From the NCBI RefSeq assembly GCF_003259375.1, contig NZ_QLLN01000001.1, positions 535,360 to 599,359 on the forward strand: 64,000 bases of DNA. The letters run 5' to 3'. Shown in pieces: positions 46,470 to 63,722 of the stretch (positions are counted from its first letter, which is position 1; each line of letters opens with the position of its first letter). Source of the DNA: Arenibacter echinorum (GTDB taxonomy: Bacteria; Bacteroidota; Bacteroidia; Flavobacteriales; Flavobacteriaceae). The position numbers and the translations under genes are program-made. The notes beneath the pieces are model-generated. The model was not told the origin of the DNA. It was given only the letters and a program-made list of their open reading frames with translations, and did no database searches.

Positions 46470-46546
<77 letters not shown>

Positions 46547-46769: not shown

Positions 46770-48017
46770 ATGTTAGAAAACAGTAGATTATCGGTGGTAT
46801 TTGTCACTCGAAAATTGAATTTGGAAAATGGGAACATTAAGATCTATGCTCGGGTCACCGTGGATGGAAAAAGAGCGGAATTCAGTTTAAATCGGGAATT
46901 GCCAGTGTCCCTTTGGGACGAAAAACGCAAAAGAGGTAAGGGGTTTTCCAAATATGTAATCTCTCTAAACAAGTATTTGGATCAGGTTTTTACGGGATTG
47001 CACGAGGCACACCGGCAACTTTTGCAGGAGGAAGTTGACATTACTTCGGCCGGAATAAAGGCTCGATATTTAGGAGAGGACGATAGGGGCAAGACACTGC
47101 TCGATTTGATAAGCTATCACAATACCTCCATGATCAGCGTCCTTAGAAAAGGAACTATGAAGAACTATTACAGTACGGAACGTTGTATCAAGGAATTTTT
47201 AAAAGAGAAAATGGGCGTTGAGGATATTCCTCTTAAAAAACTGAATTATGGTTTTATTGTAGATTTTGAACAATATATACGGAAGTATAAACCGGCCACA
47301 CGAATGGGTTGTGCCAATAACGGTGCCATGAAACACATGGAGCGCTTAAAGAAGATGTCCAGGCTTGCCGTAAAACTGGAATGGTTGGAAAAGGACCCCT
47401 TTATCAATTATAAACTACGTTTTGAAAAAACAGAACGTCAATTTCTGACGGAAAGGGAACTGCAGCTCATTGAGGATACCACGTTTAATATTCCAAGTAC
47501 CCAACACATAAAAGACCTGTTCATTTTTGCCTGTTATACGGGTTTGTCTTTTATTGATGTTAGTGGGCTAAAAATTGACCATTTGGTAAAAGGAATGGAC
47601 GGTAACGATTGGTTATATACTAAAAGAACAAAGACAGATGAACCTTTGAAGATTCCTTTGCTACCCAAGGCCATGGAAATCATTGATAAATATAAAAGCC
47701 ATGCTAGTCTGCTTGAAAATGGAAGATTATTACCTATATACAGCAACCAAATGATCAACCGCACCCTTCGGGATATCACAACCGCCTGCGGTATTCGTAA
47801 AAAGATAACCTTTCATGTAGCCCGACATACCTTTGCCACGGCGATTACACTTTCCAATGGGGTGCCAATTGAAACCGTTTCCAAACTTTTGGGGCATACC
47901 AAGCTTTCAACTACTCAAATCTATGCTAGAGTGGTTGAAAAGAAGGTAGGGGAGGATATGCAGAATTTGATGGCTACGATGAAGCTAAAAAAGGTTAGAG
48001 CTGAGGAAATTTATTAA
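46770..48017 (+). CDS. Tyrosine site-specific recombinase (Bacteroidetes type)
   Basis: A 415-aa integrase with the Bacteroidetes layout: arm-binding domain (about 8-95), SAM-like core-binding domain (about 107-205) and catalytic domain (225-400). Active-site residues are His349 and Arg352 in HVARHTFAT, His376 in LGHTKLS and Tyr385 in TQIYARV. At the Arg I position there is Ser260 (YTGLSFIDV), as known for the CTnDOT integrase IntDOT. The gene lies 226 bases after tRNA-Pro and points into the island, so it is probably the integrase that inserted it. Confidence 0.93.
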   Translation: MLENSRLSVVFVTRKLNLENGNIKIYARVTVDGKRAEFSLNRELPVSLWDEKRKRGKGFSKYVISLNKYLDQVFTGLHEAHRQLLQEEVDITSAGIKARYLGEDDRGKTLLDLISYHNTSMISVLRKGTMKNYYSTERCIKEFLKEKMGVEDIPLKKLNYGFIVDFEQYIRKYKPATRMGCANNGAMKHMERLKKMSRLAVKLEWLEKDPFINYKLRFEKTERQFLTERELQLIEDTTFNIPSTQHIKDLFIFACYTGLSFIDVSGLKIDHLVKGMDGNDWLYTKRTKTDEPLKIPLLPKAMEIIDKYKSHASLLENGRLLPIYSNQMINRTLRDITTACGIRKKITFHVARHTFATAITLSNGVPIETVSKLLGHTKLSTTQIYARVVEKKVGEDMQNLMATMKLKKVRAEEIY

Positions 48018-48444
48018 GCTATAAAATAATGTTTTGCGGCTGTTTGAACGAATTCATTCAGGCAGGTTATGTAACTTTGCTTTGGGTGCGGCATAAAAAG
48101 TAAAGATTGAGATTCTTTACTTTTTTGAGTGTCCCGATATGGCTATCGGGAGGTGTGCTGGCGTATTTGGTATTTGTTTTCTCAGGCCCTCGCTGCATCT
48201 CGTACAAATTTTTTAAGATTATCAATCTTCAAAAATTATGTGGTCTTCTAAAAGTTTCTTCTAAAAAATTAATGGAACACTTTTTATGCTAGCCGACAAT
48301 AGGAGGGGAGTGTAATATGTGTGGAATGTTATTTTTACTATTTTCTCCAAAATATGTTACGGTTTTCCGTAAACGATTACTTGTTAAATTTTGATATATT
48401 TGATTTAGACCATTCAACACAAAACATCAATTACCACTAGTTTA
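48018..48444. other. Gene-poor region with two hairpins
   Basis: No supported gene. CCCGATA/TATCGGG (48133-48139 with 48144-48150) and an AAGATT/AATCTT hairpin flanked by T and A runs (about 48210-48236) are visible. These resemble small repeats scattered in flavobacterial genomes, from memory. Confidence 0.4.
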
Positions 48445-48549
48445 ATGATAGAGCGTATTAAGAACTATTTAAGTCTTATTTCTAAAGAGATTGAAGAACA
48501 TTTATATGAAGAATTTGAAATTAATAGCGATATGGCTATTTCGGAGTGA
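48445..48549 (+). CDS. Possible 34-aa protein or gene fragment
   Basis: A short ATG frame, MIERIKNYLSLISKEIEEH then LYEEFEINSDMAISE, charged and helical in appearance. A hairpin (GGTTCTTCC with GGAAGAACC, 48552-48579) follows the stop within 3 bases, which supports an expressed unit. It is not recognised; it could be the start of a truncated gene, since island rearrangement is evident just downstream. Confidence 0.35.
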   Translation: MIERIKNYLSLISKEIEEHLYEEFEINSDMAISE

Positions 48550-48551
48550 TG

Positions 48552-48579
48552 GGTTCTTCCTCAAATTTGGGGAAGAACC
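48552..48579 (+). terminator. Hairpin after the 34-aa frame
   Basis: GGTTCTTCC (48552-48560) pairs with GGAAGAACC (48571-48579), extendable inward with one G-T pair. There is no clear T run, so the terminator call is tentative. Confidence 0.4.
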
Positions 48580-48584
48580 GTTTA

Positions 48585-48640
48585 TCAGTGCCACCCATTC
48601 CGTTTCAATCTGTGCCACTTAAGGTAAAAAAGAAAAAATA
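48585..48640. repeat. Dispersed repeat, copy A
   Basis: Begins TCAGTGCCACCCATTCCG and contains a second GTGCCACTTAAGG, so the GTGCCAC core is repeated inside about 22 bases apart. Related copies start at 61805 and 63853. The doubled core resembles the multiple terminal repeats of IS21-type elements, but this is not established. Confidence 0.55.
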
Positions 48641-48672
48641 CTCCAGCTTTTGCTAGGCACATATTAAATGTA

Positions 48673-48682
48673 AGCTATTACC
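48673..48682. repeat. Target-site duplication, left copy (AGCTATTACC)
   Basis: Identical 10-base sequence found at 49934-49943 on the other side of the ISAs1 element. Confidence 0.9.
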
Positions 48683-49933
48683 CAGGGCAAACTCACACTT
48701 TTATTCCTAATATTTTGGTCATATAGTTATTGTCATAGGCCGCTTTAAGTCTTTTGCCTTTTAAGCCTTGCTTGGTCTGTTTGTCCTGTCTCAACAGGTT
48801 TAAGGCAATTTTGCTCAGTATCGAGAAGTTTTGGGCGGCATTTCCCGCTCTTTTTCTTGATGCATCTTCCGAGAAGGCGACATCCAATACCCAATGTAAT
48901 TTATTTTCAATTCCCCAATGTAGGCGTATCATTTTCTGGAAGGCCTCCGCACTGTTCTCCAAGCTTGAGATATAATATCGGGTAGCCGTTTCTTTGGATC
49001 TTGCACTATTTTTAAACTCCCTGATGCTTTCAATTTTTATGATGCTCTTTAATTTGGTCCATTTATCCGTGTTTTCTATAAAGTCAAAAGTATTGATGAC
49101 ACTACAGCTACGTGTCTCTATTCTACCATGGCCCAGGTCGTCATGGATATGGGTCCCGATAGCTTTGCCAAATCTAAATTCATCTTCGATATCCCGGTGC
49201 AACCGCTTTTGATTGTCCTTTACGGCCAAGATGTAATCGGCCCCTTGCCCAACATTGGTCTTGGCAATATGTTCTTGGCAACCCATGGCATCTATGGTGA
49301 TTACACAGTCTTTTATGGCAATAAGCTCCAAGAGTTTTGGGATGGCGGTAATTTCGTTGGACTTCTCGCAGACCTTGACCTGGCCCAAAACCATGTTGTT
49401 GTCACTGGCCCAGGCACTTACCATATGAAAAGGGGACTTCTTTCCATTGGATCTGGATCCTCTTAGCGTTTTGCCATCAATGGGGATAACCTCGCCATCG
49501 GTAAGATCGGCCAATCCCGATACCCAGCCCATAAAGCAGGATTCGAACTGTTCTGGATCTATTGATGAGAATACACGGTTGAAGGTGTCATCGGAAGGTA
49601 TGCCATTGGGAAGATCCAGGAACGAACGTAAAAAATCCTCTTTTGCCCTGGCGTATGTTTCCATATCTTTCCATGTATCCGCGGCACAGATCACCGAAAT
49701 TATACCAATAAGAAGGATATCGTCCAATCTGTGAAGCTTGTTTATATCGCTCCTGGGGTCGTCCATCTTGCTGAAAATGGACTTGAAATTGTGGATTGTT
49801 TTCAACAACAATCAATTATCAGTACAATATACAAATAATCGACCTAAAAAACAACACTTATTTACTTGAATTACATCTATTTGGATGAAATTTTATTGAA
49901 GATGTATTTATTGGAAAGTGTGAGTTTGCCCTG
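48683..49933 (-). mobile_element. Intact ISAs1-family insertion sequence
   Basis: A 1251-bp element bounded by 19-bp perfect inverted repeats CAGGGCAAACTCACACTTT (48683-48701 and complement of 49915-49933) and by a 10-bp direct duplication of target, as usual for ISAs1. It carries one full transposase gene. Perfect ends, duplication and open frame point to a recent insertion. Confidence 0.93.
48693..49811 (-). CDS. ISAs1 family transposase
   Basis: A 372-aa DDE transposase. The N-terminal DDE_Tnp_1-associated domain (DPRSDINKLHRLDDILLI) and the catalytic aspartates in VIPIDGKTLRGS and VITIDAMGCQ are present, as is the late Glu in HWGIENKLHWVLDVAFSED. No ATG gives this N-terminus; the frame starts at one of three successive TTG codons from 49811. 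The stop lies within the left inverted repeat. Undamaged and probably active. Confidence 0.92.
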   Translation of the reverse strand: MLLKTIHNFKSIFSKMDDPRSDINKLHRLDDILLIGIISVICAADTWKDMETYARAKEDFLRSFLDLPNGIPSDDTFNRVFSSIDPEQFESCFMGWVSGLADLTDGEVIPIDGKTLRGSRSNGKKSPFHMVSAWASDNNMVLGQVKVCEKSNEITAIPKLLELIAIKDCVITIDAMGCQEHIAKTNVGQGADYILAVKDNQKRLHRDIEDEFRFGKAIGTHIHDDLGHGRIETRSCSVINTFDFIENTDKWTKLKSIIKIESIREFKNSARSKETATRYYISSLENSAEAFQKMIRLHWGIENKLHWVLDVAFSEDASRKRAGNAAQNFSILSKIALNLLRQDKQTKQGLKGKRLKAAYDNNYMTKILGIKV

Positions 49934-49943
49934 AGCTATTACC
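49934..49943. repeat. Target-site duplication, right copy (AGCTATTACC)
   Basis: Second copy of the 10-base duplication flanking the ISAs1 element. Confidence 0.9.
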
Positions 49944-50081
49944 TAAGTTTTTTTTTCTTTTATAGTTAATATTTTATTACAAAAAAGTAAGAAATAGTGT
50001 ATATTAAATAAATAATCTACTAATTTTATTAATGTGTATATACATAAGTAATTTTTATTAATCTTTTAAAAATTTTTAATT

Positions 50082-50303
50082 ATGAAAACAAAAAATTATT
50101 TAAAATTATTAGGTGGTTTATTAGTAGCTGTTGTGATGGCGGTTAATTATGTTAACATTAATAGTAGTTCGGCAAATTCTTTTTCTGTTATAGAGGTTAA
50201 AGATGCCAAGGCATCTGGCTTTTGTGTTTACAGTGATTGGGATACATGTATTGAAGAGGGTGGTGGTGAATGGTATACACTTTATGATTTTGAAGAAATA
50301 TAA
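50082..50303 (+). CDS. NVEALA-like small secreted protein
   Basis: A 73-aa protein with a basic start (MKTKNYLK), a hydrophobic segment (residues about 9-23), a linker, and then VIEVKDAKASGFC at the place where NVEALA-family proteins carry their name-giving motif. A42-K43-A44 forms an A-x-A site. Cleavage after it would release a 29-residue peptide with two cysteines (C48, C56), eight acidic and no basic residues. Such families are multicopy in gut Bacteroidetes and of unknown function. Family assignment rests on architecture, not close identity. The next genes may have been its operon before an IS30 insertion. Confidence 0.6.
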   Translation: MKTKNYLKLLGGLLVAVVMAVNYVNINSSSANSFSVIEVKDAKASGFCVYSDWDTCIEEGGGEWYTLYDFEEI

Positions 50304-50534
50304 AAGTCTCATGGATTATTCATTGTTTTACTTTGTACTATCATATTTGTTGTCAAGTTAAGGGGGTTCTGCTAAATTTTATTGATTTATCTCAGATGAA
50401 TAGACTGTAGTTCAAAGTGTATCCAAGTATGATTTGCTTTAACGTTTTGGAGATATGTTATTTTGCCTCTTGGATTTATTATATCATAGAAGGGGAATTT
50501 GGCTTAGATTCAATTGCTATTGAAAGTTTTTGAT

Positions 50535-50576
50535 GGGAGTTTTCCTTCGGGGGTATCCCCGAAGGAAAAATTCCCC
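50535..50576. repeat. Long palindrome
   Basis: TTTTCCTTCGGGG (50540-50552) pairs perfectly with CCCCGAAGGAAAA (50557-50569) around a 4-base loop, and GGGA...TCCC extends the arms with mismatches. It could be a two-way terminator or the edge of the degraded IS30 copy that starts about 25 bases later. The stretch 50304-50534 holds no gene I can support. Confidence 0.6.
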
Positions 50577-50601
50577 AAAAAAGTCAAATAGTTGTGTTAA
50601 G

Positions 50602-51545
50602 AGCTACAAACAAATGACCTTGGAACAAAGGTCTGTTGTTGAGTGGAAGTTGAAAAACGGCCTTAAGAAGATAGATATATTCATAAAGCATCCATTGCCG
50701 AGTCGTCCCTTTCCCAAGAGCAGGAAAGGAACTAGGGAAGACGGGGCGTTAACAATACCAAAGATACCGAAATAATTGTAGACGAGCGAATGAGGGAAGG
50801 ACATGTGAAAAAGCGTTTTACGCCCAAGATGTAGCTTTATGAATGGGACAAGCTCTGGAATTACTAATGGTCCCTCTAAGTGATAACAAGTAGTGCACGT
50901 CTGAGGGATATAGATATGGTCTGTCGTGAGCGCATCTAAATAAGGATATGGGAGGACAAGGCTATTGGAGGTAAACTTTACAAGAGTTTGAGGAATTCTT
51001 ACGTAAAATATAAACGATACTGAGAAAAGACAATAGTGGGCATACTGGGAAGGGTCGCCATAGATAAGTTCCTCTCGATTGTGGAAAACAAGAAAACTGT
51101 CGGGAACTTCAAGGAAGACCTTATCATCGAAAAGGGGCATAAGGGTGCATTTTGGACAGGTGCTCCAGCTTACTGTTAGTCGAAAATGTCGGTGGAAATG
51201 CAATCGATAAGTTCTTCAAGATCACAGTAAATGCACAAGAACTTTATAAGGAATGAATCCATATTAATCCAATGACAAAGGTAAGGAGATCTCTGGGCAT
51301 ATGAAAATCGCCAAGAAATCGGTTGTAATGTATTTTTCATATATCCATAAGTATCTTGGGAACGGGCATCAATGAGTATACCAACAAATTATTGAGAAAG
51401 TATTTTTCCAAGGATTCACCTTTGGGCAACGTGCAAAACAACCAAATTGGTCATGTAGTTAAATTACTTGATGACAGATCAAGGAAAAAATTGGATACGG
51501 AACACCCTAAAAAGTATTTTTTGGATGTATTCACAAAAAATCAAA
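50602..51545 (+). pseudogene. Degraded IS30-family transposase
   Basis: Pieces of an IS30 transposase appear in order but in changing frames with stops: YKQMTLEQRSVVEWKLKNG (HTH start), RVAIDKFLSIVENKKTVG, FKEDLIIEKGHKGAFWTG (DDE core), then GTGINEYTNKLLRKYFSKDS and LLDDRSRKKLDTEHPKKYF (C-terminal end). Many substitutions and frameshifts show an old insertion. It separates the NVEALA-like gene from the rest of the cargo and ends only about 30 bases before the BF3164-type gene. Confidence 0.85.
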
Positions 51546-51573
51546 ACATACATATGCTAGTATAATCGACCTT

Positions 51574-52782
51574 GTGATGATTAATTATTTTAAGTTGCGC
51601 TTTGTTTTTATGATACGTATTTTACGAACATGTTATAGGAATATTTATAAAGGATTTTATAAGATACATCCGCCTCTACATATATACTGTTTAAAAATAC
51701 TAGCAACGTGTGTTCTGTTGGGTTGTGCTAACAACTACAATAATCCGTTAAACGATTTTTCTAAAGATAATGAGATTGTACTGGTAGGTGAGGAAATCCG
51801 ATTTCAAAGCGACACAATACTATTTCGGCCCCGTAAATTCGAAGTTTATGACACCTTGGCCATTTTTAATGATAATACAGGTGAGGCGGGTTTTAGTATT
51901 GTCAATTTAAAAGATGGCCGTTTAGTAGAGAAGTTTGGTTTTGCGGGCAATGGAGAATCCGAAATGAATATTAATGCAGTTTCAATGGAAAATGGTGTCG
52001 CAAACAATGATTCAGTTTTTAGTATTACCCAGGTAAACTCTCCGCATAAAATCTTTCGCTATAATTGGGACAGTTTATTAAATAAATCTGAATACAGGCC
52101 GAAACCTATTTTTTATTCAACAAAAATTACTTTTTCGAATACTTATTTCTTGAACGATTCAATTCTATTCGGTAAGTTTTTAACTTCAAATATGGATAAC
52201 AAAACCTTTGGCGTTTTGAACCTCTATACAAACAAATTAACAACGGGTATTGAAGTACCCGGAAATGAAAATAATAAAACCCAAAGCGAAAAGGATTCTT
52301 TGTACTTCAAATATTTAAATATGAGAATGGATAATAGAGTAGCCTATAGACCAGGAAGCTTCCATGAATTTGCTTGTTTTTCTGGTAAAGGAGCAGTAAT
52401 TCAAATAATATCGGTTGACAAAAATTATCGTTTAAAGAAAAAATATCAAAAAGTATACTATCTGCCTACTTTTAATCTTCTTGTAGGACCAAATTCAAAG
52501 AAAATTGTTGCAGGGAAGGACAGTAAAAAAGGCTTTCGCAATATTGCGGTTAGTGATAAAAATATCTTCGCCCTTTACAGTGGCCCTTTGTTGAACGACA
52601 GTGATGAAAACTTCAATATATCCGATATTGTCTTGGTTTATGATTGGGAAGGGAATCCAGTAAATAGAATTAAATTGGACAGAAAAGTGAATACAATAGC
52701 TATCGACAGAGAAAATTTCACACATTTATATGGAATGATGGACTCTAACAAATTAATTAAATATGTATTATCTGAAAACTAG
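51574..52782 (+). CDS. BF3164/TolB-like beta-propeller lipoprotein
   Basis: A 402-aa protein whose lipobox VLLGC lies unusually late, near residue 51. The body fits the BF3164 family of six-bladed TolB-like propellers (ILFRPRKFEVYDTLAIFND; IVNLKDGRLVEKFGFAGNGE; IALDR-like IAIDRENFTHLYGMMDSNK). The ATG at 51574 gives an N-terminus too long for a normal signal; another ATG is at 51610. The 5' end may have been altered by the adjacent IS30 remnant. In Bacteroides this family often neighbours NVEALA genes, from memory. Function unknown; an outer-surface binding role is inferred. Confidence 0.72.
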   Translation: MMINYFKLRFVFMIRILRTCYRNIYKGFYKIHPPLHIYCLKILATCVLLGCANNYNNPLNDFSKDNEIVLVGEEIRFQSDTILFRPRKFEVYDTLAIFNDNTGEAGFSIVNLKDGRLVEKFGFAGNGESEMNINAVSMENGVANNDSVFSITQVNSPHKIFRYNWDSLLNKSEYRPKPIFYSTKITFSNTYFLNDSILFGKFLTSNMDNKTFGVLNLYTNKLTTGIEVPGNENNKTQSEKDSLYFKYLNMRMDNRVAYRPGSFHEFACFSGKGAVIQIISVDKNYRLKKKYQKVYYLPTFNLLVGPNSKKIVAGKDSKKGFRNIAVSDKNIFALYSGPLLNDSDENFNISDIVLVYDWEGNPVNRIKLDRKVNTIAIDRENFTHLYGMMDSNKLIKYVLSEN

Positions 52783-52816
52783 TCAGTAAAAGTTAGTGAC
52801 TTAATTATTTTAGAAA

Positions 52817-53257
52817 ATGGAAAATGAATACAAAATATTGCTATGGACAATATTACTTTTTATTGGATTGACTGGATGTAATCAAAAACACAAAGACAAG
52901 AATAATGAATATAATTTGGAATTTAAGAATGTGCAAAACGATAGTGTTAAGATTGAGTTTATTACAAATACTACTATCAATATAGGTTCCGTTAAGATAG
53001 GCGATACAATTAAAAGGGTTTTTAAATATAAGAATGTAGGGCAACACCCATTTTTAATTTATAACGCAGAGGCTACTTGTGGCTGTACGGTAGCTTATTT
53101 TAATGATAGCCCTTTACCTGTTGGAAAGACTGATTCGATAATTGGCATCTTTGTAAGTGATGAACACATGAAAGGTTTTGTAAACAAAGTAGTGACTGTT
53201 AACAGTAATTCACCATTATCCCCATTTTTATTGACATTTTATGGTAGGGTGGAATGA
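52817..53257 (+). CDS. DUF1573 lipoprotein
   Basis: A 146-aa lipoprotein (FIGLTGC). The DUF1573 immunoglobulin-like fold is seen as INIGSVKIGDTIKRVFKYKN, ATCGCTVAYF and DSIIGIFVSDEHMKG. The CGC pair is a family hallmark. Function is unknown; the family is found in cell-surface clusters of Bacteroidetes. It starts 34 bases after the BF3164-type gene. Confidence 0.85.
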   Translation: MENEYKILLWTILLFIGLTGCNQKHKDKNNEYNLEFKNVQNDSVKIEFITNTTINIGSVKIGDTIKRVFKYKNVGQHPFLIYNAEATCGCTVAYFNDSPLPVGKTDSIIGIFVSDEHMKGFVNKVVTVNSNSPLSPFLLTFYGRVE

Positions 53258-53356
53258 AACTTTGGCTCTTTACAGTACTATAGAACCAATGATTGTTGGC
53301 TTGTTACATTTATTAAGCATAAGGGCTATTCCACTTCATATTCTATTTTGTTTCCA

Positions 53357-55564
53357 ATGAGTAAAAGATTATTTGTTCTTTTGGTAAATCTACAAATATT
53401 GGTATTTTTTCTTCTCCTATTCTATAATTGTGTGGATTTAAGAAGATATCCATATCCGAAAGGTGTGCTTTCCTCTTTAGAAAAAGCGGGGGAAAATAAA
53501 ATGGAATTGATTAAAGTGCTAGATCATTATAAAAAGTATCCACAAGACAGTTTAAAATATAGGGCGGCCTGTTTTCTTATATCTAATATGAAGGGTCATT
53601 TTTCATCAAAAAGGATTGAGTCCTACCCAGATTTAGTAAAAGAATCATTTAAAAAAATTGACTCGCTTACCAAAGTAATCTTCTTTCATGAGGCAGATAC
53701 TTCACTTTTCCGGTTTGCAGATTATCTTCATAATATTCTAGACACAAAGGATTTCGCTCCGACAAAGGGCTTTGTAGATTCCCTGATAAAAAGAACTTAC
53801 CCTGATACTGTTGACGTAAAATTCCATAGAAAAAAAGTTGTACATTTTGAGCACTTTGTAGATAGTATTGGCAAGGAATTGCTATTCAATATCCAAACGG
53901 AAAATCAAACCAACGGAATTTATCCCGATTTGAAAAATATCTCCTGCAACTGGTTGATTGACCATATTGATAATGCGTTTTCCTGTTGGAAGAAGTCCCC
54001 TTTTGCAAGGGATTTGAGTTATAACGAGTTCAAGAACACCTTGTTGACATATAGGAGCATGAATGAATCTGTGGATACATATTCCAGTTATATTAATAAT
54101 TATTTTTACGGTATTGTTCATTCTAATGATTCTTTAAACCTTGCTAATACCGTGAGACGCTTAAATTTTGCCACCTATTGTCTCGATGTTTTCGAGGACA
54201 ATGGCCATAAAATCGGAAATTTAGGGTTTTACGATATTTTACAGTTTTATAAGTTCGATTGCGACCGACATTCCGAATGGACAGTAAGGGTATTAAACGC
54301 ATGTGGCGTTCCCGCTTATTTGGACTATACTTCGGGTTACTTTAACAGGGACAAAATACATTATGGGGTATCGGTACGGGATACTTCAGGAATTTATCAC
54401 CATTATTCCCCTAAATGGCAACAGTTAGGTGATTACAGGCATCAAAACGAATTATCCAAAATGTACAGAAATATGTATGTCAAACAGAGGTGCCCAAGAA
54501 CATTGGCCAGCATTAATGAATACGTCCCGAATACATTCAAAAACCCATATATGAAGGATGTAACCGAGGAATACCACAAGGTTACCACCTTTTCAGTTCC
54601 CTACAAGTTTAAGAAGGATAGTACCAATAGAAAATTGGGCTATTTGGCGATATTTAGCCCTAGAGGCTGGAAGCCCATTGCCTGGGGAGAGATTGATTAT
54701 GACCGTAAAAAAATCAATTTTGAAAAAGTTCCTGTAAATGCAACTTATATTGTTGGTATCTATGATTCCAATGGGTTCATTCCAATCTCCAACCCATTAC
54801 ATATCGATTTCGACAGAAAGGTTATGGAAATAGCTCCCAACAACAATCCGATTACCTTACGACTTACTCGTAAATTTCCCTTGAAATACCATTTAATTGA
54901 GTTCATGAAGGATATGATTGGCTCCAAAATACAAGGGGCCAACAGCGCGGATTTTTCGGATGCAATAGACCTCTATTCCATTGGCTCATCAGACATTTTG
55001 GATTTTTCAGTGAAAGCCTTACCTATTTCGACAAAAAAGAAATTTAGGTATGTGAGGTGTATTAGTAATGGTAAACCGCTTAATATTGCAACTTTTGAGG
55101 TGTTCTCTTCAGTAAATCAAAACATGAATATTGTCAAAGGGTCGGAACCTTCTATCTTGTCTGAGGAAAAATTAAGAAACGTGGATGTTGGTCTTTATAC
55201 AAAATTGAATGGTAACCTTTTACCTTCAAGCCAAGATGTAGAGCGGGCCTTGGATGGCAACCTAGAAACATACGTTACAACTTTTTCCATAGGTATCGAT
55301 TTTGGAAGCCCTCAGCACATTTCACAAGTAAGGTTTGCCCCCAGAAATGCCAACAATGGAATAGTGATTGGGGATAATTACGAGCTTTTATATTACGATA
55401 AGAGATGGAAAAGTGGAGGCTCCAAAATTGCAGAGTATAACTTTTTAAAATTTGAGAATGTACCCGAGAATACGATATACTGGTTAAGAAACAAGGACCA
55501 CGGTAAGGAAGAATTACCCTTTGTTTATAGGGACGGTAAGCAAATATTCGTAAACGAACGTTAG
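53357..55564 (+). CDS. Transglutaminase-like protein with C-terminal discoidin-like domain
   Basis: A 735-aa protein with an N-terminal hydrophobic anchor (FLLLFYNC, possibly a lipobox). Residues about 270-370 form a transglutaminase-like papain fold: FYKFDCDRHSEWTVRVLNA with the Cys, GVPAYLDYTSGYF, and the His in KIHYGVSV. The catalytic triad looks mostly present, though the usual GxCxxxA spacing is altered (DCDRHSEW). The C-terminal part (about 600-735) is sandwich-like (ALDGNLETYVTTFSIGIDFG). Such enzymes cross-link or cleave peptides; substrate unknown. ATG at 53357 is preferred over an upstream TTG. Confidence 0.75.
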   Translation: MSKRLFVLLVNLQILVFFLLLFYNCVDLRRYPYPKGVLSSLEKAGENKMELIKVLDHYKKYPQDSLKYRAACFLISNMKGHFSSKRIESYPDLVKESFKKIDSLTKVIFFHEADTSLFRFADYLHNILDTKDFAPTKGFVDSLIKRTYPDTVDVKFHRKKVVHFEHFVDSIGKELLFNIQTENQTNGIYPDLKNISCNWLIDHIDNAFSCWKKSPFARDLSYNEFKNTLLTYRSMNESVDTYSSYINNYFYGIVHSNDSLNLANTVRRLNFATYCLDVFEDNGHKIGNLGFYDILQFYKFDCDRHSEWTVRVLNACGVPAYLDYTSGYFNRDKIHYGVSVRDTSGIYHHYSPKWQQLGDYRHQNELSKMYRNMYVKQRCPRTLASINEYVPNTFKNPYMKDVTEEYHKVTTFSVPYKFKKDSTNRKLGYLAIFSPRGWKPIAWGEIDYDRKKINFEKVPVNATYIVGIYDSNGFIPISNPLHIDFDRKVMEIAPNNNPITLRLTRKFPLKYHLIEFMKDMIGSKIQGANSADFSDAIDLYSIGSSDILDFSVKALPISTKKKFRYVRCISNGKPLNIATFEVFSSVNQNMNIVKGSEPSILSEEKLRNVDVGLYTKLNGNLLPSSQDVERALDGNLETYVTTFSIGIDFGSPQHISQVRFAPRNANNGIVIGDNYELLYYDKRWKSGGSKIAEYNFLKFENVPENTIYWLRNKDHGKEELPFVYRDGKQIFVNER

Positions 55565-55722
55565 TTTAACAGGTTTCGGAGTTTGTGAATATTTTTTTCA
55601 TTTTACATGGACTATATGGAGATGTGGATAATTTCCGATTATTGTAATACTCACTTTCTATAAAATTTGAAAAAGCCTTAGCCCCTTGAATCCTGAAAGT
55701 TATTTTGCAAAAGGACATTGAA

Positions 55723-57609
55723 ATGACACTTAAGATAGATTGTACCAAAATTAGAATATTAAGATTAGAACATAGTATTAACTTATTGATAGTGCTGTTG
55801 TTATTCTCTCTATACGTATTTTTGCCATCGATTGATTTCTTGCCATTTCGACGCTCCCCAGTGACCGGAAAATTTATTATATTCTTACTCGCAACCCTAT
55901 TAATCGTCTGCTTATTTTTGGGAAAGCTGAAAGTTTCTGATGAATCCTTTTCTATTGGCCGGATAGATATTTCAATTCTTCTACTCGTGGTTTATATAAC
56001 GTTCAATAGATATTTTTTTCAACCCACTTACGGTTTTTCAATAAGGTTCTACGAATTGCTGGGGTTGCTGGCATTGTATTTTGTGATAAAATCGCTTACA
56101 CCTAAACATCATTCTTGGCTACTTATTGCGGCCATTATCGGTGCCAATATCCAAATCATTATAGGATGGTTACAATTATACGGCTTGATAGAATCTAACA
56201 GTTCGGTTTTAAAGGTAACAGGTGGTTTTTTTAACAGTGGCCCCTACAGTGGTTACTTGGTAGCCGTTTTTCCAATTGGCCTACAGTTCTTAAAGAATGG
56301 TAATTTCCTAATTGAAGATGGGAAAAAATATATTAATATACGAAAAGCAATCGTTCACTTTGCTGTTGTTTTAAACATTATTGGGTGTGTGACAATAATT
56401 CCTGCATTAAGATCGAGAGCCGCCTTTATTGTTATTTTCTTTACTGTAGGATATATCTATCGCAAGAATATTCAGTCCTTTTTTGAAAAAAACACAAAGA
56501 AAAGGGTTGTAAAGGTTTTGTTGGTTTTGGGGGCAATATGTTGCATGATTACTTCCATTATTTTTATATATAATTTTAAAAAAGGGTCAACTGAAGGGAG
56601 GTTGTTGATATTGAAAACTACTGTGGAAATGTTGAAAGATAGGCCTGTTATGGGTTTTGGCTATGACAGGTTCCATAGTAACTATATGCTTTATCAGTCA
56701 GAATATTTTGAAAAACACAATAACATAAAAATGGCGCTAAGGGCAGGGAATACAGCTTATGCCTTTAACGAACCATTACAGTTTTCCGTAGAAAATGGAA
56801 TATTAGGATTGTCAATTTTGTTGCTAGTGCTATATTTTTTAATTATTAGAAGAGGGACTTTAAAAGAAAATGAACCATTGTACGAGATGGCAATGGCCGG
56901 AATTTTGTCGATAATTATCTTCTCACTATTCTCGTATCCTTCTAAAATTCTGCCTATTAAATTGGTGTTAATCCTTTACGTGGCAATTTTATCTGCAAAC
57001 CAGGCTAGTTCCTTTTGCAACCGTTTTAAACCCCAAAATAAATCAAAATCAAGATCATTTTACATACTATTGATTAGTCTATCTATCTCTTGCTTACTGT
57101 TTTATAAGACACTGAAACTAGCAAAAGCTTATTATGTTTGGAATAATTCCCACGAAAATTATTTGGATAAAGATTTTAATTTGGCAGTTAAGGGTTACAG
57201 GTTAATATACCCGTTTTTTGATACCGACGGGAAGTTCCTTACCGACTATGGTCTGGCTTTATATAGTGCAAAGGATACATATGCTGCCATTAATATATTG
57301 AGCAAAGCCAAGAATTATTCTAATAATTCCGTAATAGAAAATGTGTTGGGGAATTGCTATAAGGAAATAGAAGATTACAAAAATGCTGAAATATGTTATC
57401 AACGTTCCATTAATATGGTTCCAGGAAGTTTTAGGAGCCATTACTTATTGCTTAAAATGTATTCCGACAACAATCAAATGGAAAATGCTGTGAATGTTGC
57501 TAATAGAATATTGAATTTAAAGGTTACAGTTCCTTCCGAGACAACGTTTGAAATAATAAATGGAGCAAAAAATTTTCTAAAACTTCAAGGTGTGAACTAT
57601 GTTGATTGA
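55723..57609 (+). CDS. O-antigen ligase-like membrane protein with TPR tail
   Basis: A 628-aa membrane protein with about 11 hydrophobic helices. A Wzy/WaaL-type large loop follows the central motif GGFFNSGPYSGYLVAVFPIG and has RPVMGFGYDRFHSNY, the usual Wzy_C pattern. The C-terminal 160 residues are TPR-like (NVLGNCYKEIEDYKNAEICY). Family members join or polymerise surface glycans. ATG at 55723 with AAAGGA upstream is preferred. Beside a signal peptidase and secreted proteins, it could instead transfer glycan to a protein, as PglL-type enzymes of this superfamily do. Confidence 0.78.
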   Translation: MTLKIDCTKIRILRLEHSINLLIVLLLFSLYVFLPSIDFLPFRRSPVTGKFIIFLLATLLIVCLFLGKLKVSDESFSIGRIDISILLLVVYITFNRYFFQPTYGFSIRFYELLGLLALYFVIKSLTPKHHSWLLIAAIIGANIQIIIGWLQLYGLIESNSSVLKVTGGFFNSGPYSGYLVAVFPIGLQFLKNGNFLIEDGKKYINIRKAIVHFAVVLNIIGCVTIIPALRSRAAFIVIFFTVGYIYRKNIQSFFEKNTKKRVVKVLLVLGAICCMITSIIFIYNFKKGSTEGRLLILKTTVEMLKDRPVMGFGYDRFHSNYMLYQSEYFEKHNNIKMALRAGNTAYAFNEPLQFSVENGILGLSILLLVLYFLIIRRGTLKENEPLYEMAMAGILSIIIFSLFSYPSKILPIKLVLILYVAILSANQASSFCNRFKPQNKSKSRSFYILLISLSISCLLFYKTLKLAKAYYVWNNSHENYLDKDFNLAVKGYRLIYPFFDTDGKFLTDYGLALYSAKDTYAAINILSKAKNYSNNSVIENVLGNCYKEIEDYKNAEICYQRSINMVPGSFRSHYLLLKMYSDNNQMENAVNVANRILNLKVTVPSETTFEIINGAKNFLKLQGVNYVD

Positions 57610-57681
57610 TTCGACAATACCTGTTGTTTATGGTTGCGGCAGGCACAATCAATTAAAAATGAAATCATTATAACTGTAATT

Positions 57682-58578
57682 ATGGAAAAGCGTTTGAATT
57701 TACGACTAAAGATAGCTCGCTTTTTTTTTCTTAAGCTATTAAATGTCTTATTTTGGTTTTTTTTGAGTACGATTGTTTTAAGGTTATTTTTTTTTGATGT
57801 TTTCCATATACCAAGTTCTTCGATGGAGAACACCTTACAAAAAAACGATTTTATAATTGTTAGCAAGATTTTTTACGGCAGCCCCCTAGCAAAAATCTTA
57901 AAAGAGCTGAAATTTAAGCAAAAACCAAAAATAAACGATCTTTTAGTCTTCAGCGTAGGTAAAGAATCAACGATATACGTGAAGAGATGTGTTGGTCTGC
58001 CAGGTGACATAATTGAAATAAAAGACACGGATATTTTTATTAATGGGCGATACGCACACCCTCCCCGTACCTCGTGTCATTTTCGAAAGGTTTGGTACCG
58101 AAATTTTAATGACTTAAAAGAGTGTATGAATAAGGACTCAAGCAGTATTATACAGAAATATTCCGGTTACGTTATAATCAATCTTGATTTGAACCAGGAA
58201 AAATTGCTTATGGGTTGTAAAAGCGTCGATTCGATCGGGGCAATCGAGCCAGACGCCAAACATAATAACTCAATGATTCAATTCCCACCCTATTCGGAAA
58301 ACAACATGGATAAATTTGTAATTCCCTACAAAGGATTAAAGATTAGCTTTGAGTCAAACAAAATAAAGGATTATCGTGATATTATGGAATGGGAAGAAGG
58401 GGGTGAAATTGGAGAAGAATGTTCTTTTTATTATGATAATAAAGAAAGTGAATTTTATATTTTCAAAAACGATTACTATTTTATGATTGGGGACAACAGA
58501 AACAAGTCTATTGACTCTAGGTCATTTGGCCCTGTTGCCCAAAAGAATATTATCGGAAAAGTAATATTCAAAATATAA
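57682..58578 (+). CDS. lepB: Type I signal peptidase (S26), island copy
   Basis: A 298-aa membrane peptidase that removes signal peptides on the outer face of the inner membrane. One hydrophobic helix (about 14-38) precedes the catalytic Ser47 in HIPSSSMENTL. The general base is Lys101 in YVKRCVGLPGD, and box E is GDNRNKSIDSRSFGPV near residue 274. All catalytic parts are intact, with a large insertion between boxes D and E as in other Bacteroidetes. It lies in an island with a small secreted protein, so it is probably a dedicated second peptidase. ATG at 57682 is preferred. Confidence 0.88.
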   Translation: MEKRLNLRLKIARFFFLKLLNVLFWFFLSTIVLRLFFFDVFHIPSSSMENTLQKNDFIIVSKIFYGSPLAKILKELKFKQKPKINDLLVFSVGKESTIYVKRCVGLPGDIIEIKDTDIFINGRYAHPPRTSCHFRKVWYRNFNDLKECMNKDSSSIIQKYSGYVIINLDLNQEKLLMGCKSVDSIGAIEPDAKHNNSMIQFPPYSENNMDKFVIPYKGLKISFESNKIKDYRDIMEWEEGGEIGEECSFYYDNKESEFYIFKNDYYFMIGDNRNKSIDSRSFGPVAQKNIIGKVIFKI

Positions 58579-58767
58579 AACAAGCTTTCTCTTCTTTAAG
58601 TATTTAGGTCGCTAATGTTTAAAGAGTAAATTTTTTAAAGCATTAATACCTTCCAATAGGATGGTATTTCATTTTAAATAAATTCAAATGACTAACTTAA
58701 GTACAAACTCTAGATATCTAGATATTAAAGTGTGCGTTTGGTTAGAAGTTTACTATTCGAAATAAAA

Positions 58768-61497
58768 ATGTCAAGAAAGTTTATCATTCTGCTATTATTG
58801 TCGATTTCAACCTCCGTTTTTTCACAAGATAGGTGGTCGCCCGAAAAGATCTATTTGCAGCTTGCCTCCGAAGTGTTCGCTACCGACCAAACTATCTGGT
58901 TCAAGGCCATCGTAACCGATGCAATTTCCCACCGTTTCACGGAAATTAGCGGTGTACTTCATGTTGAATTGATTGGTCCAGACGGGAAAATCGTGTCGCG
59001 TAAATTGGTCAAGTTGTCCAAAGGGGTAGGGAGGGGGTCTTTTGAACCCGAAAAGGGCTTGCCGGAGGGCCGCTATCTGGTACAGGCCTATACCCAATGG
59101 AACAGAAACTTTGGGGATGATTTCATTTATAAGCGCTACGTGGACATTGTAGCTCCTTGGCCCTCAAACAACCCGAAATTATTGGATTCCCTAAAACTGG
59201 AGAAAGTAGGTGACGGGCGGTTCCTTTTGAGCGCTAAGGTTAGGTCAGACGCCATAGAATCGACCGGGGCCAAGCAGGTACAGGTCGCCATAGAAAGAGA
59301 TAAGGGGAGCGACACCCTGCTTATAAAAAGAAATGGCCATGGAGCTTATGCATTTGAATACGAGATGCTGGAAGACCCTAGCTGGGTGACCGTGACAGTA
59401 GAGGGGCTATCCGAAACGGTCGTCCTGGATCAAAACGAGGTAGACCTGCAATTCTTTCCTGAAAGCGGTACGTTAATTGAGGGGTACAGCAACAAGATAG
59501 CGTACAAGGCCATAGGCATCGACGGCAAGGGAAGCAGGGTCCAGGGAACCGTTTTCGACGACAGGGGGAAACATATCATTGATTTTGTGTCAAACCGTTT
59601 GGGAATGGGCTATTTTTCAATTTACGCCGAAAGTTCCCGTACCTACCATGCCGAAATTCGTTCCACGAACGGACCGAAAACCATCGTAAAATTCCCTTTG
59701 CCCAAATCGGCATCCAATGGAAGTATTATCTCTGTTCAACGAACTGGCAAAAATATTTGGGCGGGGGTATACTCAAATGTCCTTTCCGGCAATGTGTATA
59801 TCAAGGTCTCTTGCCGGGGGCAGGATCTTATTATGATAGAGGGTCCGTTGCGAGACGGATATCTGTCCAAGAGCCTTTTATCGGAGGCATTGCCAGAGGG
59901 CATACTCGTCTTTACCCTGATGGACCAGAACAAAAATACCGTTGCGGAGCGGCTGTTCTTCAATGAAAAGACCGAAGACCATTTGAAGGTGGACCTGGCT
60001 ACGGACAGGGAAACGTATGCACGGCGCCAACCTACCCAATTGGATATCCTTATCACGGGACAAGATTCCGTTCAGGGCCCCGTAGAATTGTCCGTTTTGG
60101 CCATCAATTCAGTACAGGGCCAGCATACGTTTGGGAACATTAAATCCTACTTTCTTTTAAGTTCGGAACTGCGGGGAACGATCGAGGATCCCGATTACTA
60201 CTTTAATTCCCAGAATACCGGACGTGCCCAGGACCTCGACGCCCTTATGCTCTCCCAGGGCTGGCGCCGTTACAAATATCCTGCAAAACGCATCGAGAAG
60301 ACCCTTTATTGGCCTCAGTCTCGCCTCGAGGTCAGGGGCTCGGTACAGGCCCCCGGAAGGAGCAAACTCTCTAAGGAAGGCGTGGGGCTTACCTTATCTT
60401 CCTTCTCAAAGTCACCGGTCTTCTACTCAGGAACCACCGATAGTCTGGGTAACTTCAGGTTCATGATGGAGGATACCTATGGCCCACCCATGCGGGTCCT
60501 ACTTACGGTAGATGATGGAAAAAAGGGGAATAAACTTGATTATAGGATCAATTTGAATAACCCAAAGCCTCCAAAAGTAACCTATGATCGTAGGCCGGCC
60601 TTTCGTCAACTGGATACCCTGATCAGAAGTGTGGCCGTGGCGGGAATGGAACGTGTCCGAACAGAAGCCATATTAGATTCCCTCTATGGGGTTACGCAAC
60701 TGGACGAGGTGATTGTTACCGACAACCTCTTAAGTCCCGAGCGCAAAAAACTTTACGACAAATACGGAGAACCAGATGGGATCGTCAATGGAGATGATTT
60801 AAGGGCAAAGGAGAAAAAATGGTCCTATGGGCTATACAGTATCCTTCTTTTCAATTACGGAGATCAGGTATTTATTGAAAAATATAGCGACGGGTTTATG
60901 CTTGCGCATGTCAGAGCGGGACAGTATGGAGCCGTAAGATATCAATCCGGACGCGGTATCGTACCGGGAAATCCAAAAAAGGAGGGGACTTTATTGATCG
61001 TCGACGGTAAACCGCTTGACAAACACCAATATGGTCAGGTGTCCAATATGTCCCCCGAAATTATAGAGCGGGTAGAACTTATCCAGTACGCCAGTTCCTT
61101 TAGGAGCTTGTACCAGAGTGTTTTTCCAGAGGTAAGTCCCATGAATACGCCATCTCTTGGACATATCATTTCTGTGGTTACCAAAGGCGGTTTAGGTATC
61201 AATACTTCCATAAGGCCGACACCTGGCACCTTTAATACGTCTGTCGAGGTCTTTTCCCCGGTCATGGAATTCTACACCCCAAAATACGACAGTCCGATTC
61301 CCACCAAAGAACAAAAGCCGGATCTTAGGGCACTTATCCACTGGCAACCCCATCTGAGCACTGATAAGTCAGGAAGCGCATCGGCTCGTTTTTATAATGG
61401 AGACGTTCCGGGCGACTATATAATTGTTGTAGAGGCTATTTCAAGGGACGGGCGCGTCGGTTATGGAAAGAAGCATTATGTTGTATCAGAAAAGTGA
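58768..61497 (+). CDS. Macroglobulin-like MG2/TonB-plug protein without barrel
   Basis: A 909-aa secreted protein with a signal peptide (about residues 1-19, TSVFSQD). The N-terminal half is a chain of macroglobulin-like sandwich domains (EKIYLQLASEVFATDQTIWF). Around residues 540-600 is a carboxypeptidase-regulatory-like domain. A TonB-receptor plug-like segment follows (LDEVIVTD; GTLLIVDGKPL; IIERVELIQYASSF). It ends with the family closing motif GDYIIVVEAISRDGRVGYGK. There is no beta-barrel, so it is not a transporter. Base composition is visibly richer in G+C than the AT-rich genes before it, a sign of separate origin. The ATG at 58768 is chosen over an upstream GTG because it gives the signal peptide. 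Confidence 0.78.
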   Translation: MSRKFIILLLLSISTSVFSQDRWSPEKIYLQLASEVFATDQTIWFKAIVTDAISHRFTEISGVLHVELIGPDGKIVSRKLVKLSKGVGRGSFEPEKGLPEGRYLVQAYTQWNRNFGDDFIYKRYVDIVAPWPSNNPKLLDSLKLEKVGDGRFLLSAKVRSDAIESTGAKQVQVAIERDKGSDTLLIKRNGHGAYAFEYEMLEDPSWVTVTVEGLSETVVLDQNEVDLQFFPESGTLIEGYSNKIAYKAIGIDGKGSRVQGTVFDDRGKHIIDFVSNRLGMGYFSIYAESSRTYHAEIRSTNGPKTIVKFPLPKSASNGSIISVQRTGKNIWAGVYSNVLSGNVYIKVSCRGQDLIMIEGPLRDGYLSKSLLSEALPEGILVFTLMDQNKNTVAERLFFNEKTEDHLKVDLATDRETYARRQPTQLDILITGQDSVQGPVELSVLAINSVQGQHTFGNIKSYFLLSSELRGTIEDPDYYFNSQNTGRAQDLDALMLSQGWRRYKYPAKRIEKTLYWPQSRLEVRGSVQAPGRSKLSKEGVGLTLSSFSKSPVFYSGTTDSLGNFRFMMEDTYGPPMRVLLTVDDGKKGNKLDYRINLNNPKPPKVTYDRRPAFRQLDTLIRSVAVAGMERVRTEAILDSLYGVTQLDEVIVTDNLLSPERKKLYDKYGEPDGIVNGDDLRAKEKKWSYGLYSILLFNYGDQVFIEKYSDGFMLAHVRAGQYGAVRYQSGRGIVPGNPKKEGTLLIVDGKPLDKHQYGQVSNMSPEIIERVELIQYASSFRSLYQSVFPEVSPMNTPSLGHIISVVTKGGLGINTSIRPTPGTFNTSVEVFSPVMEFYTPKYDSPIPTKEQKPDLRALIHWQPHLSTDKSGSASARFYNGDVPGDYIIVVEAISRDGRVGYGKKHYVVSEK

Positions 61498-62085
61498 GTT
61501 CAAATAAATGAAGTACATCACCTCGTTAAAAGAAACTGCGTTTGGTGAGACGTTAAATTCTAGTTTTTTAAAGTCCCATAAAACGAACGTAACCGTTGCA
61601 CAAGCAAATAAATTATAAAAAAAACAAACTTCTATAACTCCCTTTTAAGGCAGTTTCTCTTTTTAGGTCAGCAAGTAACCGGATATTTTTGGAGGCCTTT
61701 GCAAACCAGCTTTCAACAAAACCAACACGGGCAGCCGTTGTACAAGTCCTAATTTTTAGAAAATCCAGCTTATTTAAACCGCTTTACAGGCTTTCTTTAA
61801 TGCATCAGTGCCAGCCATCCCGTTTTAAATTGTACCACTTTAAAGAAAACAAATAAAATTCCCCACTGGCTCGTGCCTTCCCTTAAATTGGCTGGCCAAA
61901 CACCGCTCCTGTCCAACCTCTTTGCATATTATTGACTAAAAATCCCTAAATTGGAAAAAATAAAAAGGATCCAATCCCTGTAGCAAGGATAGCGCAAAAC
62001 CGAGACCGCATAGTTACATTAAAGAACTGCGCCCTTGGCTTACCTGATTTAATCCTATAATGTTAACGGTAATTTGAAAACCACA
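61498..62085. other. Gene-free region with repeat B
   Basis: No intact gene. On the minus strand 61620-61760 reads open for a short while (ASKNIRLLADLKRETALKG), possibly a decayed transposase or other gene, unrecognised. Repeat copy B occupies 61805-61976. Confidence 0.4.
61805..61976. repeat. Dispersed repeat, copy B (long form)
   Basis: Starts TCAGTGCCAGCCATCCCG, has the second core TGTACCACTTTAAAG, and ends CCCTAAATTGG...AAAAAGGATCCAATC. The start matches copy A; start and end both match copy C at 63853-63965. Copies B and C flank the HTH and hydrolase genes in the same orientation. Confidence 0.65.
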
Positions 62086-62649
62086 ATGAAGAATAGCTTA
62101 AAGGAGCATAGAAGACTTAAAAACCTGACTCAAGAAGAGTTATCAAAGTCTTCTGGAATATCCATTAGAACTATTCAGCGAATCGAAAAAGGATTGTCAA
62201 CGGGAAGTTCTCATACCCTCAAAACTTTAGCGAAAACTTTATCCATTGAAAGCTCAGATATATTTCATGATGAAGGTAACCCCAAATTATTTGTAAAAAA
62301 CAACATAAAAACATTGAAACTTATGAATTTTAGTGTTTTAACAATGTTGGTAATCCCATTTGGTAATATTATTTTCCCATCAATTATATTTTTCAAGAAT
62401 AGAAATGATAGAAAGATGAATACTATTGGAAAGAAAATTTTGAATTTTCAAATTTTAAGTATGTTAGCACTACCTTTTTTCCTAGTTATTCTATTCCTGT
62501 TAGCAGGAAAAGGGTATGGAGGATTTCCTATAATTTTAATAGTCTCTTATTTAACTTATGGGTTAGCAAATATCATCATTACAATACATATATCAGTTCA
62601 GATAAATAAAGAAAAGGAAGTATTAAGCTTCGTCCCAAATGTTCTTTAA
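62086..62649 (+). CDS. HTH (XRE) regulator with membrane domain
   Basis: A 187-aa protein. Residues about 4-60 form an XRE-type helix-turn-helix (NLTQEELSKSSGISIRTIQR). About 75-180 hold four hydrophobic segments of DUF4870-like type. Such HTH-membrane fusions are common in flavobacteria; target and signal are unknown. ATG at 62086; an in-frame TTG 12 bases earlier is possible. It lies 114 bases before the hydrolase gene, with which it forms a two-gene module between repeats B and C. Confidence 0.82.
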   Translation: MKNSLKEHRRLKNLTQEELSKSSGISIRTIQRIEKGLSTGSSHTLKTLAKTLSIESSDIFHDEGNPKLFVKNNIKTLKLMNFSVLTMLVIPFGNIIFPSIIFFKNRNDRKMNTIGKKILNFQILSMLALPFFLVILFLLAGKGYGGFPIILIVSYLTYGLANIIITIHISVQINKEKEVLSFVPNVL

Positions 62650-62763
62650 ATCCTACATTGTCATACAGATGGCGTAAAAATGACATACGTCTTTTTCAAT
62701 TCTCTCCTATTTACTCCAATAATTTTGCATCAGGAGAAAATACAAACATCTGAATCACTAAAT

Positions 62764-63702
62764 ATGAGAAGTGAACTTAAAATAATTCTGAGCATTTTAT
62801 TTGTAATTGCCTTAAATCCGTCAAATCATGCTCAAAATAACGATAACGAATTAGTTGTTGTCGATGGCAAAAGAATAGCGTACAAATCCTTCAATATTGA
62901 AAACAGAAAAAAAGGGGAACCAATTCTTGTTTTCGAAACGGGATTAGGTGGCGGAACTTTTGGCCCTATTCTTCCTTTTCTACCTAGTAATATTTCGGGT
63001 ATTCAATACGCTAGAAATGGAGTTGGAAAATCAGAGCTAGATACTGAAATAACATCTGATTCTCAACTTGCCGATCGACTACATAATTTATTAACAACCT
63101 TGAACATTGAACCACCATATTTATTGGTTGGGCATTCCATAGGTGGACCGTACATAAGATTATTCGCATCTAAGTTCCCAAACGAAGTTTGTGGGCTCGT
63201 TTTTTCGGACCCAACCGACTTTATGTTGACTGTTGAAGAGGATGAAGAAGCAAGAATAAAATCTAAAAGTGCTACTGGTTATCGGGAAACGTCTTTGTTA
63301 ATTCAGAAAATGATGTCCGAAAATGATAGTTTTGGCCAAGGAGCAAGGAATGATGCCACAAGGGCTTTGAAATCTAGTGTATCGGGTTACTTTCAAGAAT
63401 ATCAACACTTACCTGAATTGAATAGGAATATTGCTGCAACGGTAATTATTTCATATAACAAACCTATCGAACAACCAGACGAAGAATTAAATAAGAACCT
63501 TAATCTAGGAATTAATTTCAAGCCTTGGTGGAAAGAATACGATAATTTGAGAATACAGCATTTCACGGATTTGATAAAGGACAATGATAACAGTAGAATT
63601 ATTTTGTTGCCAAAATACAGCCACGGCATATATTATCAAAATCCAGAATTGGTAGCAAAACTGATTATTGAAAACTATAATAGCAATATCAAAGAAAAAT
63701 AA
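62764..63702 (+). CDS. Secreted alpha/beta hydrolase
   Basis: A 312-aa alpha/beta-hydrolase with a signal peptide (about residues 1-23, PSNHAQN). The nucleophile elbow is GHSIGG (LLVGHSIGGPYIRLFAS), the oxyanion region ETGLGGGTFGP, and the likely catalytic His is in PKYSHGIYYQNP near the C-terminus. Substrate cannot be told; esterase and peptidase relatives look alike. An upstream in-frame ATG would add 28 residues before the signal; the ATG at 62764 is preferred. Confidence 0.82.
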   Translation: MRSELKIILSILFVIALNPSNHAQNNDNELVVVDGKRIAYKSFNIENRKKGEPILVFETGLGGGTFGPILPFLPSNISGIQYARNGVGKSELDTEITSDSQLADRLHNLLTTLNIEPPYLLVGHSIGGPYIRLFASKFPNEVCGLVFSDPTDFMLTVEEDEEARIKSKSATGYRETSLLIQKMMSENDSFGQGARNDATRALKSSVSGYFQEYQHLPELNRNIAATVIISYNKPIEQPDEELNKNLNLGINFKPWWKEYDNLRIQHFTDLIKDNDNSRIILLPKYSHGIYYQNPELVAKLIIENYNSNIKEK

Positions 63703-63722
63703 ATAACTACAGCTGATATCTA

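Follow-up and report, generated by a model that had tools for sequence, protein, structure and literature searches.

Gene content of the island

The window analyzed here is a whole stretch of 64,000 nucleotides from Arenibacter echinorum. Our subject within it is an island of seven same-direction genes at positions 50082 to 61497. The island encodes a small NVEALA-like precursor and an accessory type I signal peptidase (SPase; family S26), and we read it as a candidate peptide-secretion cassette. It contains the following features (aa, amino acids).

50082..50303, +, NVEALA-like precursor gene, 73 aa, called from the conserved site register
50214..50300, +, predicted released peptide, 29 aa, starting after A44 (VKDAKA before, SGFC after), placed by the A-x-A register of relatives
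51574..52782, +, six-bladed propeller lipoprotein, PF15869, with an LLGC lipobox
52817..53257, +, DUF1573 lipoprotein, PF07610, with an LTGC lipobox
53348..55564, +, TGm, a lipoprotein-like protein of 738 aa with a transglutaminase-fold core, CBM62-like modules, and weak F5/8-type-C-like modules
55705..57609, +, O-antigen-ligase-like (Wzy_C) membrane protein with a TPR tail, PF04932
57634..58578, +, accessory type I signal peptidase (S26), TIGR02227, Ser and Lys invariant
58732..61497, +, MG2/plug-like secreted protein, sub-threshold PF01835 and PF07715, whose relatives adjoin TGm

The preliminary description had listed these seven genes with an intact peptidase, and this stands. Translation of the open reading frames (ORFs) gave no internal stops in any frame. 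Four of its protein labels score above the curated cut-offs: the propeller (54.9 bits; cut-off, 29.2), DUF1573 (68.4; 26.1), the Wzy_C domain PF04932 (52.6; 31.7), and S26 TIGR02227 (124; 47). The macroglobulin/plug label is only sub-threshold, with MG2 at 23.1 bits (cut-off, 32.8) and Plug at 18 (23.9). The transglutaminase-like label has no Pfam match in the TGm of the window, but a predicted model appears to contain a transglutaminase-like core.

The top Foldseek match of TGm was transglutaminase 2 (E 9.6e-4), with no good full-length fit. The structure prediction for the MG2/plug protein was poor (mean pLDDT, 52.9). The peptidase Ser and Lys are invariant in all 8 aligned S26 sequences, the window's among them. 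A search of PDB sequences with the Wzy_C profile listed 60 of 280 matches; these were TPR-type, and no ligase structure was among them. Defense-system models gave no match for the six larger proteins of the island. They gave only generic HTH-type matches for the neighboring gene at 62074-62649.

The precursor and its recurring neighbors

The small protein of the window has a hydrophobic stretch that ends near residue 21, and A42-K43-A44 follows 23 residues on. After AKA there are 29 residues (SGFC...EEI) with two Cys. The gap had been put at about 20 residues and the remainder at 29, in agreement with these values. Ordinary signal peptides have their cleavage site roughly 3 to 7 residues past the hydrophobic segment. 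In the relatives, the hydrophobic segment starts with lysine, and A-x-A comes a median of 25 residues after it, according to script picks in a table of 57 rows in which five proteins were entered twice and some rows picked a non-homologous A-x-[AGST]. For the window, the script first chose residue 33; the site homologous to that of the relatives is at residue 44.

The preliminary description had proposed aligning NVEALA-like proteins for A-x-A conservation, and the site was found in the same register. A strict A-x-A is present in 6/6 Arenibacter and 7/7 other Flavobacteriaceae proteins (13/13). Two further proteins (from loci L066 and L070), read by eye, also have it. The flavobacterial consensus is N-T-A-N-A before the site and E-C after it, with the last A near residue 42 to 44, and A42-K43-A44 of the window is in register. 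All 20 Bacteroidales proteins encode A-x-A/S/G/T. The last residue of their NVEALA motif is A in 13, S in 5, G in 1, and T in 1, a recount that replaces 14 strict A-x-A of the script, one of which lay upstream. The leaders are alike between relatives; the released parts differ. Four to six Cys occur in 42 of 56 released parts (five proteins counted twice), and the window's has two.

The earlier name "NVEALA-like" holds in part. The PF14055 model is not matched, but the site position and the neighbors agree. The leader match is only borderline, so the protein is called NVEALA-like by its position, site, and neighbors. A homologue search with it returned a single match, a 69-aa near-copy in the protein database.

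A search for the same gene set in other Bacteroidota had also been proposed. The set recurs, with true NVEALA genes in Bacteroidales and NVEALA-like genes in Flavobacteriaceae. It contains a small gene, an accessory S26, TGm, Wzy_C, and six-bladed propeller lipoproteins, and several relatives add an RND/MFP/TolC exporter. S26, TGm, Wzy_C, and the propeller are all present in the window cluster; no RND/MFP/TolC exporter was found in the window.

True PF14055 genes are rare. They were found in 4 of 392 genomes of the phylum sample at E 0.001, with 2 over the cut-off. G255 and G354 have eleven hits. Ten of these are in clusters with propellers, S26 of about 290 aa, TGm, Wzy_C, and DUF1573-type genes, and the G255 clusters also hold RND, MFP, and TolC. 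The eleventh (G255:C4) is beside a propeller only. The cluster of Arenibacter G001 contains an RND pair, MFP, TolC, TGm, Wzy_C, two S26, propellers, and MG2/plug. The part examined of the Arenibacter G002 cluster contains an RND pair, MFP, TolC, S26, and a propeller. Both encode different small proteins. The gene run after the G001 cluster (L065:9885-15000) has what we take to be a conjugative-transfer (tra-like) look.

TGm is also rare. It was found in 8 of 392 genomes of the phylum sample at E 1e-40 (three with shorter frames) and in 18 of 397 Flavobacteriaceae at E 1e-70 (the window's genome counted), with only the best three candidates per genome scored. The relatives are 38 to 50% identical and mostly full length. 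Found by TGm alone, eight Flavobacteriaceae loci contain S26 or RND (L066, L070, L071, L074, L076, L078, L080, and L081). NVEALA-like small genes are present in 6 of the 8, the exceptions being L076 and L078. L070 is nearest to the window in content, with a small gene, a propeller-type DUF4221, two MG2/plug, TGm, S26, and Wzy_C. Integrase pieces flank it on both sides. At L080:4098-5077 (Seonamhaeicola), one S26 gene is split into two frames, and a second S26 there is intact.

The Bacteroidales-family loci were 14 author-chosen places of 23 strong TGm places, plus two loci of G354; two further partial TGm places over E 1e-60 (G429) were left off that list. The Flavobacteriaceae loci outside the window were 19 of 20 TGm places (G513 was left out). 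The small-ORF detector missed L023a, L024, L066, L070, and L081 and took the wrong ORF in L065, and these were read by eye instead.

Other small genes adjoin TGm. Between Wzy_C and TGm, L073:4274-8997 and L075:4096-8053 contain repeated secreted-protein pairs with alike leaders (N-V-T-x-I-V), which may be another substrate class of TGm and Wzy_C. Short peptides whose leader is of the double-glycine type (EMxxIEGGG) are encoded beside TGm genes of G466, at L075:1217-1396 and L077:11378-11569; they are presumably like bacteriocin precursors.

The linkage of NVEALA and S26 genes exceeds chance. In the Bacteroidales family to which G255 belongs (61 genomes), the number of NVEALA hits with an accessory S26 no more than 20 kb away was at least 10 of 24, where chance predicts 0.27. 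"Accessory" here is our own sorting of the S26 matches listed. By genome, an accessory S26 is present in at least 6 of 8 NVEALA genomes and in 3 of 53 others among the matches listed (Fisher P 4e-5, kinship uncorrected). The hit of G443 is one of the 24, but because it lies in a 988-aa frame, the count by genome excludes G443. Twenty control stretches of 19.9 kb, placed by us in the same genomes away from the clusters, were searched for twelve families at E 1e-8, and no member turned up. The small-ORF detector gave a match in one control locus, L094.

The two leader types of G001 adjoin S26s of two clades. In the tree, the S26s that go with the ALAQ leaders of G001 and G002 are sisters. ANAQ and ANAE leader types did not sort the S26 tree; only the ALAQ pair groups. 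The preliminary description had linked the genes into one system and had named NVEALA genes placed at random relative to the S26 and ligase genes as a finding that would speak against this. Random placement does not fit, because the gene set recurs as a unit and the far A-x-A is in the same place in relatives. Recurring homologous sets bear the linkage out, and as judged from the sequences, the gene set is a recurrent linked unit.

The propeller lipoprotein appears to belong to the same unit. It is the first long gene downstream of the small gene in 28 of 33 cases (PF15869, PF17170, or DUF4221 type), three pairs of these small genes sharing one propeller (L023, L074, and L047). Nearest relatives were compared in 29 pairs: those of the mature part and of the propeller coincided 9 times, those of the leader and of the propeller not once. 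The linear Mantel r for the mature part against the propeller was 0.42 (P 0.0005), and it fell to 0.19 (P 0.0085) once three pairs that are closely related were removed. This is suggestive of a peptide and propeller inherited as a pair under a shared leader. In L047:4378-12037, a thiol/DUF1573-like gene and NVEALA genes are directly duplicated at an offset of about 6 kb, and the mature parts of these NVEALA genes differ.

The mobile element

The island lies within a longer element with the following features in the window.

46470..46544, +, tRNA-Pro (ggg), left attachment site, from ARAGORN, the direct repeat, and the identity step
46770..48017, +, tyrosine integrase of the element, PF00589, 64.7 bits (cut-off, 27.1)
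48577..62549, no strand, shared block, 99.9% identical in two other Arenibacter genomes with different flanks
48680..49936, -, insertion sequence (IS) with a DDE transposase at 48693-49811, PF13808 and PF01609
50560..51565 (limits approximate), +, decayed transposase remnant in the gap between precursor and propeller, from three-frame translation

The last 13 bases of tRNA-Pro (CTGTCATCCCGAC) are found again 32.3 kb downstream, beyond the window. The element runs from 46470 to 64000 and on to about 614201 of the window's contig (G000:C1), or about 32 kb. Between the 13-bp repeats it encodes a NikA-like gene, a relaxase gene, and a DUF6088/AbiEi-like gene. The same DNA is present in A. algicola E3M18, A. 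troitsensis DSM 19835, and Arenibacter sp. F20364 and ARW7G5Y1. A. troitsensis and F20364 have full identity with the window from 46470 to 65046. Left of 46469, identity to G017 and G016 is 79 to 81% over 3.5 kb, with a step from 80-81% to 100% at the start of tRNA-Pro. The truA genes of the genomes carrying the copies are 90, 89, 90, and 85% identical to the window's (G001, G012, G017, and G016, respectively). From the tRNA-Pro, the integrase, the 13-bp repeats, and the NikA-like and relaxase genes, we conclude that the island is probably cargo of an integrative mobilizable element of about 32 kb at tRNA-Pro.

The IS at 48680-49936, which we take to be of the ISAs1 type, has inverted repeats of 22 bp with 2 mismatches (48680-48701 and 49915-49936). 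It ends 145 bases before the precursor gene. The remnant, presumably IS30-like, fills most of the 1.27-kb gap and separates the precursor from the propeller gene in the window. Two stretches of about 68 bases, at 63846-63913 and at 48578-48645, are 78% alike. Both are possibly IS ends, and the latter lies on the left border of the shared block.

These insertions bear on whether the precursor is still a working gene. It may be a remnant in Arenibacter, with the island kept only by spread of the mobile element and no peptide made. The IS upstream and the remnant inside the operon fit such decay, as do the weak family match of the small protein and the lack of a dedicated RND partner in our searches, and the copies are so nearly identical that they are too recent for judging selection. 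However, all seven frames are intact in five of five copies (the window and L001 to L004), with the small protein unchanged. The mostly full-length TGm relatives and the near-copy of the small protein in the database also argue against decay, and we consider it improbable.

Interpretation and comparison with known systems

We propose, with a probability of roughly 0.55, that the island is a recurrent cassette in which the linked S26 cuts the precursor after residue 44 (A-K-A), likely freeing an acidic two-cysteine peptide of 29 residues. The recurrence of the gene set, the A-x-A about 25 residues on, the alike leaders with differing products, and the propeller usually next are read directly from the sequence. 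The precursor would be inserted in the membrane by the Sec route. Cleavage after A44 would be by the linked peptidase and not the housekeeping one. The propeller lipoprotein may be the cognate partner of the released peptide. The Wzy_C protein may transfer glycan to the peptide or to a partner, and TGm, with its sugar-binding-like modules, may act on the glycan-bearing product. In relatives, the RND/MFP/TolC pump would export the product. The cassette of the window has the MG2/plug protein, and a dedicated second RND has no match in its genome (E 1e-60). The propeller partner, the exporter, and the mobile element, with the IS and the remnant beside the precursor gene, are additions to the preliminary description; the cleavage mechanism is a good inference.

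Several observations weigh against this proposal. The small protein of the window has no PF14055 match at E 1, and its genome has none at E 0.001. Against three leader profiles it scored E 0.011, 0.021, and 2 (the last with the Bacteroidales profile) among 957 ORFs, which is borderline, and unrelated control ORFs outscored it with two of the three. The A-x-A counts, those of the Arenibacter proteins excepted, are partly a product of selection, because most of the other proteins were found with a motif-holding Pfam model or profile or with the A-x-[AGST] detector. For 14 of the 24 NVEALA hits, no accessory S26 among the matches listed is closer than 20 kb (some of these hits are on short contigs), so orphan NVEALA genes exist; G453 and G460 encode NVEALA with no accessory S26 in that list. 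The S26 of the window is a long branch in the tree. TGm is often found with Wzy_C and without S26, so the two form a module of more than one setting. S26 and NVEALA can also both be missing where TGm is present, alone or with Wzy_C, so neither TGm nor Wzy_C is peptide-specific. Of 18 Arenibacter genomes, two have a dedicated RND2 at E 1e-60, and the window's is not one of them. Rank-based co-variation of peptide and propeller gave r of about 0, with only close pairs carrying the signal. The IS upstream of the precursor gene and the remnant downstream, inside the operon, belong here too.

Some of these observations favor another reading, in which the small protein is cut by the housekeeping SPase. 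The linked S26 would then act on a different substrate, be it MG2/plug, TGm, or a glycan-assembly protein, and envelope-glycan assembly would be what keeps the genes traveling together. The window's genome encodes an SPase of the housekeeping type (about 582 aa) at another place (G000:C1:270114-271277), orphan NVEALA genes are common, and MG2/plug accompanies TGm and Wzy_C in L049, L053, and L057, and TGm alone in L056, without S26 or NVEALA. However, the accessory S26 tracks NVEALA by genome and by position. The two leader types of G001 beside two S26 clades, and the ALAQ pair with its sister S26s, also argue against this reading, and we regard it as rather unlikely. A surface structure is improbable: the small proteins could be fiber or coat subunits, like TasA processed by SipW (a dedicated SPase encoded with a fiber protein; PMC6173796), anchored through glycan and transglutaminase action, for which the fold and the sugar-binding-like modules of TGm would be suited, but short, variable, Cys-bearing products with alike leaders, a propeller partner, and RND/TolC in relatives suit a soluble exported peptide better.

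If the linked S26 does release a peptide, its role is most likely interbacterial, as a weak call: a toxin with an immunity lipoprotein or a signal with a receptor. It is a tentative suggestion that NVEALA cassettes are a new peptide secretion class of Bacteroidota, with a dedicated SPase that cuts a conserved leader far from the membrane, Wzy_C/transglutaminase decoration, export by a twin RND pump or through MG2/plug, a cognate propeller for each peptide as its immunity protein or receptor, and spread of these pairs across species on mobile islands.

NVEALA is a named Pfam family with no described role in the open literature searched. No paper on NVEALA proteins or the gene set was found in open full text, a scope outside which subscription papers and preprints lie. 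Text matches to "PF14055" concerned Plasmodium or enzyme profiling and were taken as similarly lettered Plasmodium gene names. With S26, a ligase-like enzyme, TGm, RND pumps, and propellers, the orphan family becomes a testable secreted-peptide system. It spans Bacteroidales to marine Flavobacteriaceae, and in Arenibacter it is on recently mobile DNA.

The cassette resembles the NVEALA (PF14055) loci of Bacteroidales. Both encode a small precursor with an N-terminal hydrophobic leader, A-x-A about 25 residues on, and Cys in the released part, and both have a propeller lipoprotein neighbor and an S26/TGm/Wzy_C cluster. The window differs in having no PF14055 match, the motif VIEVKDAKA and not NVEALA, and no RND in the cassette. 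Its ligase-like protein shares an above-cut-off domain with the Wzy_C enzymes (PF04932), which we take to be WaaL/PglL-type, and differs by the TPR tail. Like bacterial peptide toxins with immunity genes, the system combines a variable predicted product, alike leaders, a putative partner gene directly downstream, and mobility. Unlike in those systems, the partner is a propeller lipoprotein. In tapA-sipW-tasA of Bacillus, the signal peptidase SipW and the secreted substrate to which it is dedicated share an operon (PMC6173796). The SPase of the window is likewise encoded beside its putative secreted substrate. It differs in its unrelated substrate, its diderm host, a site far from the membrane segment, and its propeller, Wzy_C, and transglutaminase-fold partners.

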